Shown here: positions 58,217 to 61,823 of the stretch, piece by piece | Layout of the letters: every line of letters begins with the position of its first letter | Position numbering within the stretch: position 1 is the stretch's first letter | From: Clostridiales bacterium Firm_04 | GTDB lineage: Bacteria > Bacillota > Clostridia > Oscillospirales > Ruminococcaceae | NCBI GenBank assembly: GCA_001603005.1 | Contig: LVAJ01000040.1 | Coordinates: 1 to 64,000 of the forward strand | Direction of reading: 5' to 3' | Length of the DNA: 64,000 nucleotides | Program-made: the position numbers and the translations under genes | The notes under the pieces: generated by a model | Told to the model about the DNA's origin: nothing | The model's database searches: none | Seen by the model: the letters and a program-made list of their open reading frames with translations, nothing else

Positions 58217-58465
58217 ATGTACGTGACGACCGTTCATCTCCCCGAGATCGCAGATGTTGCAGAATTTGTCAACATCATGAGCCGCTTCCGTTTTGAGGCA
58301 CAGCTTCATGTCGGCAGCTATTCCGTCGATGCCAAGTCCATTATGGGCATCTTCACGCTTGACCGTGAACAGCCGATCCAGCTCGAAGCATTCGTGACGG
58401 ATGAAGCTGAACAGGCAAAGCTGAACGAGGCACTCGGCAGATTCTTATATCATCCGGTGCACTGA
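58217..58465 (+). CDS. HPr-like protein lacking the active-site His
   Basis: An 82-aa protein with the HPr fold: SYSVDAKSIMGIFTLDREQPIQLEAFV matches the regulatory-Ser region of HPr and Crh, but the N-terminal part (LPEIADVAEFVNIM) has no His where HPr carries the phosphorylated His15. It should therefore not pass phosphate in the PTS. Clostridia have several such proteins; a Crh-like regulatory role is an inference. The ATG at 58217 follows GTGAGG. It is monocistronic with a promoter and a strong terminator. Confidence 0.85.
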   Translation: MYVTTVHLPEIADVAEFVNIMSRFRFEAQLHVGSYSVDAKSIMGIFTLDREQPIQLEAFVTDEAEQAKLNEALGRFLYHPVH

Positions 58466-58585
58466 TCCGGCGCACCGCCTTCAAATTTGACATTTTCCTT
58501 TTGGGAGACAAATGCTGCTCCCGAAATCCCCCTTTTTTCATGTTGCTCCCCGCTTGCCGCTGCAATGGGGAGCAAACAACCCTCT

Positions 58586-58631
58586 GCGTATCGTTCTCTG
58601 CTGCGTGCAGAGAATGATGCGTGTTTTTTTT
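58586..58631 (+). terminator. Terminator of the HPr-like gene
   Basis: Long imperfect stem GCGTATCGTTCTCTGC/GCAGAGAATGATGCGT followed by eight T residues. A second strong hairpin, TTGCTCCCC/GGGGAGCAA (58542-58574), precedes it. Confidence 0.9.
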
Positions 58632-58684
58632 GCCTGAAAGTTGCTCTACTATTATAACACAGAACCGCCGGAAATGCAAGCCGC

Positions 58685-58714
58685 TTGACAGACGCTGCAT
58701 TTCCGTGGTATAAT
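58685..58714 (+). promoter_or_regulatory. Promoter of the GTPase-NYN fusion gene
   Basis: Perfect TTGACA (58685-58690), 18-bp spacer, perfect TATAAT (58709-58714), 45 bp before the ATG. Confidence 0.85.
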
Positions 58715-58759
58715 CATAATAATTACGTTTGAAACGATACAGAAAGGGGACGCGGCAGT

Positions 58760-61327
58760 ATGAAGCAGCTGACAGTCGGTCTGATGGCACATGTCGATGC
58801 CGGAAAAACCACGCTTGCCGAAGCACTTCTGTTCCGCACAGGCGAGATACGGAAGCGCGGACGCGTCGATCACGGCGATTCGTGGCTGGATACCAATGAG
58901 ATCGAGCGCAGCCGCGGCATTACGGTGTTTGCGCATCAGGCATCCGTGACGCTCGGCGATACGGTCGTGACGCTGCTGGACACGCCCGGACATGTGGATT
59001 TTTCGGCGGAGACTGAACGTACCATGCAGGTGCTCGATTACGCCGTGCTTGTCATCAGCGGAACCGACGGCGTGCAGAGCCATACCCGCACGCTCTGGAA
59101 GCTGCTGGCGCGCTACCATGTGCCGGTGATCCTGTTCGTCAACAAAATGGATCTCTCCGACCGCACGGAAACCGCGCTGATACAGGAATTGCAGGGCAGA
59201 CTCTCTGCGGGCTGCGTGCAGTTTGATTCGGATTATGAGACTGTCTGCGAGAACGCGGCAGCCTGTTCGGAAGCGCTTATGAGCGCATATTTTGAGGATG
59301 ACACGCTTTCGCAGGACATGCTGCGGGATGCGATCGCGGCGCGGCAGGTCTTTCCGGTCTGCTTCGGCGCGGCGCGGGATCTGGTCGGCGTGGAATCGCT
59401 GCTGCAAATTCTCGCGCAGTATACACAGGAACCGCCGCGCACGGAATCGTTCGGCGCGCAGGTGTTCAAGATCTCTGCGGACGCAAAGGGCAACCGCCTG
59501 ACCTATCTCAAGATCCGCGGCGGGACGCTCCGGAACCGTGATGAGATCCGCTATACCGGCGCCGATCACGCGGAATATACGGAGAAGGTCACGGGCATCC
59601 GGTTTTATTCCGGCGCGAAGTATACGCCTGCGGATGAGGCGGAAGCGGGCGCTGTCTGCGCCGTGACGGGGCTTTCCGCAGCCTATGCGGGGCAGGGGAT
59701 CGGCTGCTGCGAGGATGCAGAGGAAGCAATCCTGACGCCGGTCATGCGCTATCGGGTGCTTCTGCCGGAGCAGATCGCGCCGCAGGATGCGATGACGCAT
59801 TTTCAGCAGCTCGAAGCAGAGGATCCGCAACTGCATGTGGAATGGGACAGCCGTGCGCATGCGATTTTCGTGCAGCTGATGGGCGCGGTGCAGCTTGAGG
59901 TGCTGACCAAGCAGGTCGTAGACCGTTTCGGCTATGACATCGCCTTTGACAGCGGTGCCGTCACGTACCGCGAAACGATTGCGGAAGCAGTGGAAGGCGT
60001 CGGACATTACGAACCGCTGCGGCATTATGCAGAGGTGCATCTGCTGCTGGAGCCGCTGCCTGCGGGGAGCGGTCTGCAATGCGGGACGCGCTGTCCCGAG
60101 GATGCGCTTGACCGCAACTGGCAGCGCTTGATTCTGACGCATCTTCTTGAAAAAACACATCTCGGCGTACTGACAGGCTCGCCGATCACCGATATGAAGA
60201 TCACACTGGTCAGCGGCAAGGCGCATCTCAAACATACCGAGGGCGGCGACTTCCGGCAGGCGACCTACCGCGCTGTGCGGCAGGGGCTTCGCTCTGCGGA
60301 GAGCATTCTGCTGGAACCGTATTACGATTTTACGCTGGAGATTCCGGCGGGCTGTGTCGGGCGCGCAATGACCGATATTCAGCAGCGTGCAGGACAGTTT
60401 GATCCGCCGGAATTGTTCGGCGAAACGGCAGTCCTGACGGGCAGCGCGCCGGTCGCAACGCTGAATGACTACGCATCCGAGGTGCTGAGCTATACCAAAG
60501 GCAGCGGCATCCTGACGCTTTCGGTTTCGGGTTACCGCCCGTGCCATGATCCGGAAGCGGTCATCGAACAGATCGGCTACGACGCTGACAGCGATCTCGA
60601 AAACAGCGCAGATTCGGTCTTTTGCTCGCACGGCGCCGGATTTGTCGTCGGCTGGCAGGAAGTGCCGCTGTACATGCATCTGCCGGCGGTTCTGCCGCAT
60701 CGCTATGACTTTCCGGAGGAGGAGATCGTGCCGGAGCGCACCGCGCGGGGATCCGCAATGCCGACCGCGGGCGACGAGGAGCTCATGGCGATTTATGAGC
60801 GCACCTACGGCAAGATCAACCGCGATCAGCCCAAGGCAATGCGCCGGAACAAGACCGCCGAGCTGATCGAGGGCAATGTCAAAGTGCCTGCGCCGCCTGA
60901 AAAGGAGTATCTGCTCGTGGACGGCTACAACATCATTTTTGCGTGGGATTCGCTGAAAGCGCTTGCGCAGGACAGTCTGGAGCATGCGCGGGACCGTCTG
61001 CTGCATCTGCTGCAAAATTATCAGGGCTATCGGAAATGCGAGGTCATACTGGTTTTTGATGCATACAAGATCAAGGGGCACGGCAGAGAGATCGAACAGC
61101 ACGGCGGCGTCAGCGTTGTTTATACGAAAGAAGCGGAGACCGCCGATTCCTATATCGAGCGCGTGTCCAAGCAATTGCTGAAAGAAAACCGCGTGCGCGT
61201 GGCGACGTCCGACGGGCTGGAACAGCTGATCATTCTGGGCAACGGCGCAATGCGGATCTCGGCACGGGAATTTGAAGCGGAAATGCGGGCAGCGGAGCAG
61301 GAGATCCGCGCCCTGATCGGAGGGTGA
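58760..61327 (+). CDS. TetM/EF-G-type ribosomal GTPase fused to a Rae1/YacP NYN nuclease
   Basis: An 855-aa two-part protein. Residues 1 to about 640 are a translational GTPase of the ribosomal protection (TetM/TetO) and EF-G group: P-loop AHVDAGKTT (10-18), switch region RSRGITVF, DTPGH (74-78) and NKMD (128-131), then beta-barrel and EF-G-like domains III to V. After a linker, about 716-850 is a NYN (PIN-like) nuclease of the YacP/Rae1 family: LLVDGYNII (Asp721), VFDAYKIKG, ETADSYIE and ATSDGLEQ keep all acidic residues. Rae1 of B. subtilis enters the ribosomal A site and cuts mRNA, and TetM binds the A-site region too, so a fused A-site factor is a reasonable inference. The next gene starts 4 bp after the stop. 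Tetracycline resistance is possible but unproven. Confidence 0.92.
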   Translation: MKQLTVGLMAHVDAGKTTLAEALLFRTGEIRKRGRVDHGDSWLDTNEIERSRGITVFAHQASVTLGDTVVTLLDTPGHVDFSAETERTMQVLDYAVLVISGTDGVQSHTRTLWKLLARYHVPVILFVNKMDLSDRTETALIQELQGRLSAGCVQFDSDYETVCENAAACSEALMSAYFEDDTLSQDMLRDAIAARQVFPVCFGAARDLVGVESLLQILAQYTQEPPRTESFGAQVFKISADAKGNRLTYLKIRGGTLRNRDEIRYTGADHAEYTEKVTGIRFYSGAKYTPADEAEAGAVCAVTGLSAAYAGQGIGCCEDAEEAILTPVMRYRVLLPEQIAPQDAMTHFQQLEAEDPQLHVEWDSRAHAIFVQLMGAVQLEVLTKQVVDRFGYDIAFDSGAVTYRETIAEAVEGVGHYEPLRHYAEVHLLLEPLPAGSGLQCGTRCPEDALDRNWQRLILTHLLEKTHLGVLTGSPITDMKITLVSGKAHLKHTEGGDFRQATYRAVRQGLRSAESILLEPYYDFTLEIPAGCVGRAMTDIQQRAGQFDPPELFGETAVLTGSAPVATLNDYASEVLSYTKGSGILTLSVSGYRPCHDPEAVIEQIGYDADSDLENSADSVFCSHGAGFVVGWQEVPLYMHLPAVLPHRYDFPEEEIVPERTARGSAMPTAGDEELMAIYERTYGKINRDQPKAMRRNKTAELIEGNVKVPAPPEKEYLLVDGYNIIFAWDSLKALAQDSLEHARDRLLHLLQNYQGYRKCEVILVFDAYKIKGHGREIEQHGGVSVVYTKEAETADSYIERVSKQLLKENRVRVATSDGLEQLIILGNGAMRISAREFEAEMRAAEQEIRALIGG

Positions 61328-61331
61328 GCGC

Positions 61332-61823
61332 ATGGCACAGGATTATCAGATGCCGGAGGGCATGAAGCGCGTGTACTATCACACCGAGCACACGGAATGC
61401 ATGACGTATTTCCAGATCACGGGCAATTTTGATCCGGATGCGATTTCTGCGTATCTGCGTCTGATTCCGGAGCGCACGCAGTGCATCGGGGACATGAAGC
61501 TGAACGGCACGACCTATGACTATGCGCTGTGGCGGTTCGGGACGGTCAAGAGCACGCGGCTCGACATCGCCAATCAGATGATGCAGACGATTGATCCGCT
61601 GCTGACGAAAGCCGACCTGCTGCGCAAGATCAAGCTGACCTATGATGCGCAATTGCTGCTACAGGTGGTGCCGCTGGTGCGGTACGATGAGCCGGCACCG
61701 ATGCTTGCGCCGTCCATGGCGGTGATGCGCTTCTGCATGGAGACCGGCACCGAGATCGACATAGATCTCTATGTCGGCTGTCCGGACGACATGACGGGCG
61801 TGCAGGAGCAGGAACAGTTTTGA
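61332..61823 (+). CDS. DUF4279-like protein downstream of the fusion
   Basis: A 163-aa soluble protein. ECMTYFQITGNFDPDAISAYLRLIPERTQCIGD at 22-54 is the start typical of the DUF4279 family, followed by YALWRFGT and a segment with DLLRKIKLTYDAQLLLQVV. The family is unassigned; some members sit near toxin-immunity loci. It starts 4 bp after the fusion stop codon and so is very probably co-translated with it. AGGGTGAGCG overlaps the stop and acts as its ribosome site. Confidence 0.82.
   Translation: MAQDYQMPEGMKRVYYHTEHTECMTYFQITGNFDPDAISAYLRLIPERTQCIGDMKLNGTTYDYALWRFGTVKSTRLDIANQMMQTIDPLLTKADLLRKIKLTYDAQLLLQVVPLVRYDEPAPMLAPSMAVMRFCMETGTEIDIDLYVGCPDDMTGVQEQEQF

Follow-up and report, generated by a model that had tools for sequence, protein, structure and literature searches.

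Can a bacterium that lacks a separate gene for Rae1 (YacP) obtain its ribosome-directed nuclease from a domain fused to a translational GTPase, and what would the GTPase contribute? The question is raised by a gene in a 64,000-nt stretch of DNA (the window) from Clostridiales bacterium Firm_04, contig LVAJ01000040.1, positions 1 to 64,000. The gene (58760..61327, + strand; ATG start, stop codon included in the end coordinate) encodes a protein of 855 amino acids (aa), in which a GTPase of the EF-G/TetM superfamily is joined through a linker to a YacP/Rae1 NYN nuclease domain. We propose, with a probability of about 0.5, that this protein is a chromosomal housekeeping factor and the only Rae1 of its lineage, a GTPase-delivered nuclease that cuts mRNA in the ribosomal A site. 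Rae1 itself is described in the accessible text of two papers as a nuclease attacking mRNA in the ribosomal A site (PMC12320835, PMC6613710).

Domain architecture of the fusion protein

The preliminary description of the window had read this open reading frame (ORF) as one polypeptide with both modules, and Pfam bears this out. The frame contains GTP_EFTU (residues 4-223, 8e-49), EF-G_D2 (231-308), EFG_IV (400-513), EFG_C (517-597), and NYN_YacP (718-850; 4.2e-50, 170 bits against a Pfam cut-off of 24.6); EFG_III (342-395) gave 23.5 bits, below the cut-off of 27. Residues 1-600 correspond to the five EF-G domains and are followed by a flexible linker and by the NYN domain at residues 716-850 (60905..61309; this and all other parts of the gene are given on the + strand), placed by profile and by alignment to Rae1. 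The features that define the EF-G superfamily, namely a G domain, domains II-V, and the histidine of DTPGH, are all found in the window protein. A structure comparison of the GTPase part superposes the predicted model over all EF-G domains, domain III included, with no TetM or TetO chain among the 50 matches listed; by sequence, the closest solved relatives are TetO and TetM.

The three GTPase motifs, previously noted as intact, are near-invariant in the family. In the P-loop AHVDAGKTT (residues 10-18, 58787..58813), A10, V12, D13, G15, K16, and T18 are identical in all 107 fused rows covering it. D74, T75, G77, and H78 of the G3 motif DTPGH (residues 74-78, 58979..58993) are kept in 108/108 fused rows covering them, as are N128, K129, and D131 of the G4 motif NKMD (residues 128-131, 59141..59152) in 108/108 rows. 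From work on EF-G, the histidine of DTPGH is the catalytic histidine of ribosome-activated GTPases.

The GTPase part ends in a conserved C-terminal tail (residues 601-641, 60560..60682) with a DSVFCSHGAG motif, and a similar FCxxG tail is present in unfused relatives. Within residues 595-641 (60542-60682), C595 and H640 are conserved in at least 90% of rows and C622 is invariant, while many unfused members terminate with one more cysteine; the conserved Cys/His residues possibly form a metal site. The linker (residues 650-711, 60707..60892) includes two stretches with a predicted local distance difference test score (pLDDT) below 50 (650-671 and 689-711) and, between them, a short conserved helix (672-683) in a conserved segment of residues 672-688 (60773-60823; consensus ELMxIFERTYG). 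L675 and G684 are invariant in an 80-row alignment, and the helix may be a contact to either the GTPase or the ribosome.

Distribution of the fusion and selection acting on it

An assembly error joining two genes, which the preliminary description named as a possible refutation, is ruled out by the occurrence of the fusion in a single frame across the genus, a species scan, and a phylum sample. In the genus, 25 of the 30 genomes, that of the window included, carry it in an uninterrupted frame that starts at residue 1-2 and reaches residue 845 or beyond. Two pieces of the gene are present in genome G023 and a single piece in G017, whereas G011, G025, and G028 have EF-G-type proteins as their best matches (E 7e-23 to 3e-25). 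The suggested search for the same domain order across clostridia was made with one genome per species. It confirmed 599 or more stretches, of which the 80 best are nearly full length: 79 begin at residue 1 or 2 and reach residue 849 or beyond, and the other one (L081) starts at residue 29. The records of these 80 matches are titled Clostridia, Oscillospiraceae, Lachnospiraceae, their genera, or Bacillota alone. The preliminary description mentioned fusions of this kind in clostridial databases under tetracycline-resistance names, and they do exist in print: the accessible text of Atkinson 2015 (BMC Genomics 16:78, PMC4342817) reports a Tet-YacP fusion in ten clostridial species.

The fusion protein is under purifying selection. 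For 11 sequences from the genus and its nearest relative (55 pairs, six segments, unsaturated pairs only), the ratio of non-synonymous to synonymous substitution rates (dN/dS) had its lowest segment median, 0.064, in the NYN domain, compared with 0.111 in the G domain and 0.166 in the linker. This low ratio and the kept aspartates described below rule out a degenerate nuclease.

The fusion in place of a standalone Rae1 gene

The absence of a separate yacP gene, at first noted for the window only, extends to the whole of its genome (no second YacP found, at 88.6% completeness) and to the fused genomes of the class and phylum samples. Apart from the window's own genome, a completeness of at least 90% was asked for in the family, class, and phylum samples. 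A YacP match over the cut-off is present in 64 of the 138 genomes of the window's family, and in 61 of these 64 it lies in a frame of 842-1340 aa. The class sample has YacP in 100 of 147 genomes, 54 fused and 46 standalone (168-216 aa); in the family and class samples 'fused' is defined by frame length, the GTPase part having been checked in some genomes only. None of the 147 class genomes has both a fused and a separate YacP, a second match in G285 being below the cut-off. In the phylum sample, YacP is over the cut-off in 161 of 299 genomes, and 21 have the GTPase at E<=1e-95: 18 of these are fused, with no second YacP among the matches listed, and three have an unfused GTPase together with a standalone YacP. 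Four families (f22, f23, f27, and f105) hold both states in different genomes, which indicates that one state can replace the other. Thus, the fusion and a separate Rae1 exclude each other, and the fusion replaces the separate gene.

In a tree of 43 fused and 41 standalone NYN domains, one branch (100/99) parts all the fused from all the standalone domains; it is present in all 200 bootstrap trees, the bootstrap being not quite settled. This split points to one fusion event with no later escape in the 84-row sample. The gene neighborhoods differ likewise. Of the 41 standalone yacP loci, 37 have rlmB as the adjoining gene, the exceptions (L094, L099, L100, and L102) all belonging to family f23; rlmB was found near none of the 129 fused loci (123 distinct genes), with flanks of 0 (contig ends) to 6 kb. 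The window's own genome retains rlmB, with no yacP beside it and followed by an 892-aa ORF.

A few frames are shorter. In the family sample, they are 202 aa in G035 (a contig end, with the GTPase part at another contig's end), 262 aa in G038 (a split gene), and 348 aa in G111 (a stop); in the class sample, 351 aa in G209 (a frame change), 734 aa in G227, and 789 aa in G236 (contig end). In G038 (L203, G038:C33:10900-25000), a relative from the window's family, about 11 kb of DNA separate the two parts of the fusion gene near residue 597; encoded there are a serine recombinase, a relaxase, a methyltransferase, proteins of RepA type and similar to IstB, and a ribosomal protection protein of the Tet type. 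The in-frame stop in G111 (L199) and the frame change in G209 (L200) reflect either decay or sequencing error.

Nuclease active site and the missing Rae1 tail

The NYN domain was aligned to residues 3-136 of B. subtilis Rae1 (PDB 5MQ8), a protein of 170 aa ending in FEKWRRGDLD, and the window protein stops five residues past the last aligned position. The fused domain is therefore complete for the core and lacks the last 34 residues of Rae1, so that the earlier view of a complete nuclease stands for the core and fails for the tail. The acidic residues were said to be intact, and in homologs they are: D721 (60920..60922; Rae1 D7), D767 (61058..61060, in VFDAY), and D796 (61145..61147; Rae1 D81, in ETAD) are aspartate in 123/123 fused and 40/40 standalone proteins, and D818 is aspartate in 122/123 and 40/40, respectively. 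We take D7 and D81 of Rae1 to be the catalytic pair.

The C-terminal tail, by contrast, distinguishes the two states. The basic motif [LF]E[KRED]x[RK][RK], in the W164/R166 region of Rae1, is matched by 32 of 40 standalone proteins and by none of 123 fused ones; these counts leave out the second copies L001, L143, L171, L174, L191, and L192 and the duplicate L182, and an earlier pattern-based count with second copies included gave 27/38 and 0/125. Past the NYN core, the standalone tail has a median of 34 aa and a net charge of +3, compared with 11 aa and a net charge of 0 in fused proteins, 57 of 123 of which have fewer than 10 aa there; the p-values of these tail statistics ignore relatedness. 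R166P was found among loss-of-function rae1 suppressors in B. subtilis, as given in the accessible text of PMC6613710, and a second deposited Rae1 structure (5MQ9) differs from 5MQ8 at W164; both indicate that the tail matters in B. subtilis. Since its own tail has no Rae1 motif, the fused chain is, strictly speaking, no Rae1 protein, although it contains a nuclease domain of the Rae1 type. The catalytic residues stayed and the tail is missing; most simply, ribosome docking would have passed from the Rae1 tail to the GTPase module.

The GTPase forms a subfamily apart from TetM/TetO by sequence

Loop III of domain IV occupies residues 486-500 (60215..60259), where the alignment sets GKAHLKHTEGGDFRQ of the window protein against YYSPVSTPADFR of TetM. 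In TetM, according to the accessible text of PMC8161019 and PMC7456112, this loop (domain IV; Ser508-Pro509-Val510) displaces tetracycline, and Pro509 meets the drug site and C1054. The window residues aligned to SPVSTP are LKHTEG, and loop III reads HxKHTEGGDFR in the 123 fused proteins with few exceptions (H489 in 122, H492 in 121, T493 in 123, E494 in 108, and D497 in 121), GGDFR being missing in three rows. The stricter word pattern KHT[ED]GGDF matches 107 of 122 fused proteins; SPVS[TS]P matches none of the 122. Domain IV is the best-conserved domain in a comparison of 89 proteins (the partial L081 dropped), and the KHTEGGDFR tip is therefore under constraint.

The profile for Tet proteins gives the same picture. 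The window protein scores 404 bits with NCBIfam tet_protect (NF012153) and fails its curated cut-off of 775; among the controls, four unfused relatives score 374-442 bits, and a TetM-type protein from a related genome (L135) scores 852.6. In a midpoint-rooted GTPase tree of 88 rows, 66 of them a sample of fused proteins with four second copies (L131, the second piece of L125's gene, was excluded), the KHTxGGDF clade lies on one side of a branch of 100/98, and the SPVSTP proteins lie on the other, together with a further group resembling EF-G. By these sequence criteria the window protein is not a TETRACYCLINE-protection protein, and the data favour assigning the GTPase to its own subfamily. 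The earlier link to drug-stalled ribosomes through TetM is not supported, the TetM tip being replaced by an unrelated conserved motif. The further group (L126, L128, L137, and L138) has a loop III of neither TetM nor KHT type, e.g. HHTIHTHPMDF, and L137 reaches 580 bits in the Tet profile.

Inside the KHTxGGDF clade, the fused proteins and an unfused Ligilactobacillus salivarius plasmid protein form one group (98/93) and ten unfused proteins a second one (97/93); unfused L134 is unplaced, and the branch of L139 is very long. The unfused proteins share about 38-47% identity with the window protein. Those in the plasmid rows listed, mostly from L. salivarius, are annotated TetM/TetW/TetO/TetS. 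The plasmid protein that groups with the fused ones is encoded on the UCC118 megaplasmid pMP118 (L141:4001-5917), next to rpsN for ribosomal protein S14, and either lost its NYN domain after transfer or derives from transfer of the GTPase part alone. In the unfused L125/L131, L206, and L207, about 80 extra residues lie inside the GTPase part.

Proposed mechanism and alternative explanations

EF-G-type GTPases put domain IV in A-site space. In the mechanism that we propose, the EF-G-like GTPase would bind the factor site of slow or stalled ribosomes with its domain-IV tip in the empty A site and would bring the flexibly tethered NYN domain to the decoding centre. Domain IV and NYN should not fit one A site together, and sequential action is therefore proposed: upon GTP hydrolysis domain IV would withdraw, and NYN would enter and cut the exposed A-site mRNA like B. 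subtilis Rae1, the cleavage freeing the ribosome to exonucleases and transfer-messenger RNA (tmRNA). Ribosome binding, coupling to GTP, the substrate, and the order of events are what we infer here, and the preliminary idea of a GTP-driven nuclease on stalled ribosomes is plausible. More tentatively, the chain might be a one-chain no-go-decay machine, in which the GTPase recognises a vacant A site, hydrolysis swaps domain IV for NYN, and mRNA cleavage requires the GTPase cycle; the missing docking tail would then be what this take-over left behind, and the KHTEGGDFR tip would sense that the decoding centre is vacant.

Several observations weigh against the proposal of a housekeeping Rae1 delivered by its GTPase. 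In the window's family, 74 of 138 genomes have no YacP at all; together with three relatives in which the gene is split (G038), stopped (G111), or frame-changed (G209), these genomes argue that the fusion gene is not essential. An expected enrichment of the unfused GTPase in genomes with standalone YacP was not seen: an unfused GTPase of the KHT subfamily occurs in 4 of 46 standalone-YacP genomes and in 3 of 40 YacP-less genomes (20 of the 74 family-sample and 20 of the 47 class-sample genomes without a match). The similar rates with and without YacP are the main evidence against tight coupling: the GTPase can act alone, and its link to the nuclease may be a loose one. The placement of the GTPase relative to NYN has no confident prediction (predicted template modelling score, pTM, 0.63). 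Finally, the tail loss may be one ancestral event, and since it and much of the mutual exclusion may stem from a single fusion, the phylogenetic sample is small.

An alternative is a chain with two separate jobs, in which NYN is an ordinary Rae1, the GTPase works independently of it against stalling or in back-translocation, and all that the fusion provides is co-expression and local concentration. The unfused members of the subfamily, three of them in YacP-less genomes, agree with this explanation, as does the long flexible linker; in addition, 42 of the 46 standalone-YacP genomes have no such GTPase at E<=1e-45, so that a separate Rae1 manages alone. The complete absence of the basic tail motif from fused NYN domains, as expected if the partner supplies docking, and the failure of a fused NYN to reappear alone in the 84-row tree speak against it, and we regard independent jobs as doubtful. 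It is improbable that the nuclease acts instead on rRNA or tRNA, in maturation or surveillance of ribosomal particles sensed by the GTPase. NYN domains were proposed for rRNA/tRNA maturation in work cited in the accessible text of Atkinson 2015 (PMC4342817), and the usual neighbor of standalone yacP, rlmB, is an rRNA methylase gene; against this, the accessible text of PMC12320835 and PMC6613710 describes Rae1 as an A-site mRNA endonuclease, and no neighbor family is common to more than 9 of 85 fused loci.

An explanation already in print is tetracycline resistance in which ribosomal protection goes together with an RNase activity: in its accessible text, Atkinson 2015 (PMC4342817) placed the fusion in the Tet subfamily and suggested an RNase role in resistance. 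The closeness of TetO and TetM among solved structures and the Tet annotations of the listed plasmid relatives are in line with it. Sequence distance from Tet proteins is an indirect argument, as a distant protein could still protect. Yet loop III differs from SPVSTP at the very residues that meet the drug, the subfamily scores 374-442 bits where the TetM-type control reaches 853, the 100/98 branch sets the clade apart, and the gene is present throughout the genus with no conserved surroundings; we consider this explanation very improbable.

Genomic surroundings

A promoter-like site (58685..58714, +; a consensus match only) lies 45 nt upstream of the fusion ATG; both of its hexamers, -35 and -10, are perfect, its spacer is 18 nt long, and TG precedes the -10. 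In nine other loci of the genus, three promoter scores are 9-11 of 12 and six only 6-7; in the three of these six weak-promoter loci that were checked (L006, L008, and L010), the upstream neighbor is a coding frame whose end lies 28-32 nt away, its product being HD-type hydrolase-like by look only. Further upstream in the window are a short ORF for an HPr-like protein (58232-58465, +; PTS-HPr, 26.9 bits) and, after it, a terminator-like hairpin (58585-58623). A DUF4279 gene (61332..61823, +; Pfam) starts 4 nt downstream of the fusion and is probably co-transcribed with it. A DUF4279-like gene is downstream in 6 of 85 fused loci, and an operon logic was rejected, the most frequent neighbor family, in nine loci, being ATP-binding cassette (ABC) transporter-like ATPases by look. 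An antisense frame of 893 aa in the ORF list (58652-61333, -) spans the whole fusion gene and is taken as an effect of coding composition, as other long frames of the window overlap on opposite strands too.

The fusion was also found, at 54% and 48% identity, in two scaffolds from human faeces that carry no annotation and are titled 'Bacteriophage sp.' (MT835563.1 and MT835514.1; L204 and L205); they are either prophage flanks or mislabelled bacterial DNA. A phage origin was rejected: in an IMG/VR scan with 49 loci, none of the listed matches extends past residue 641.

Comparison with known systems

The Tet-YacP fusions of Atkinson and co-workers have the same architecture, an EF-G-like GTPase followed by a YacP NYN domain, and the same kind of host, as compared by their published description. 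Contrary to their placement, the protein described here has another domain-IV tip, replaces the standalone Rae1, and has no Rae1 tail. The architecture was already known. New, as far as our searches reach, are the conclusions that the fusion replaces Rae1, that its GTPase is of a distinct subfamily, and that the docking tail is missing; an experimental study of the fusion was not found in searches of one open-access library. TetM and TetO share the five-domain EF-G-like plan, whereas the window protein has LKHTEG for SPVSTP, an extra conserved C-terminal tail, and the added NYN domain. The unfused KHTxGGDF GTPases of the class and phylum genomes and of pMP118 have the same or a similar loop III and the FC-motif tail, and they end after this tail with no NYN. 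If true, our proposal argues for taking a widespread gene family of gut bacteria out of tetracycline-resistance annotation.

B. subtilis Rae1 (5MQ8/5MQ9) shares the NYN domain over residues 3-136, with D7 and D81 kept; it is a separate protein with a basic tail, encoded by a standalone gene of the type usually found beside rlmB, and the fusions have no such tail. We know of no account of how Rae1 reaches and selects ribosomes. A natural fusion that kept the active site and lacks the docking tail makes this delivery question testable, since the partner should suffice. Hbs1-Dom34 and other GTPase-delivered A-site factors offer the nearest parallel, a GTPase that brings an effector to the empty A site; here, in contrast, effector and GTPase share one chain, the effector being a nuclease and the GTPase a member of the EF-G and not of the EF-Tu branch.

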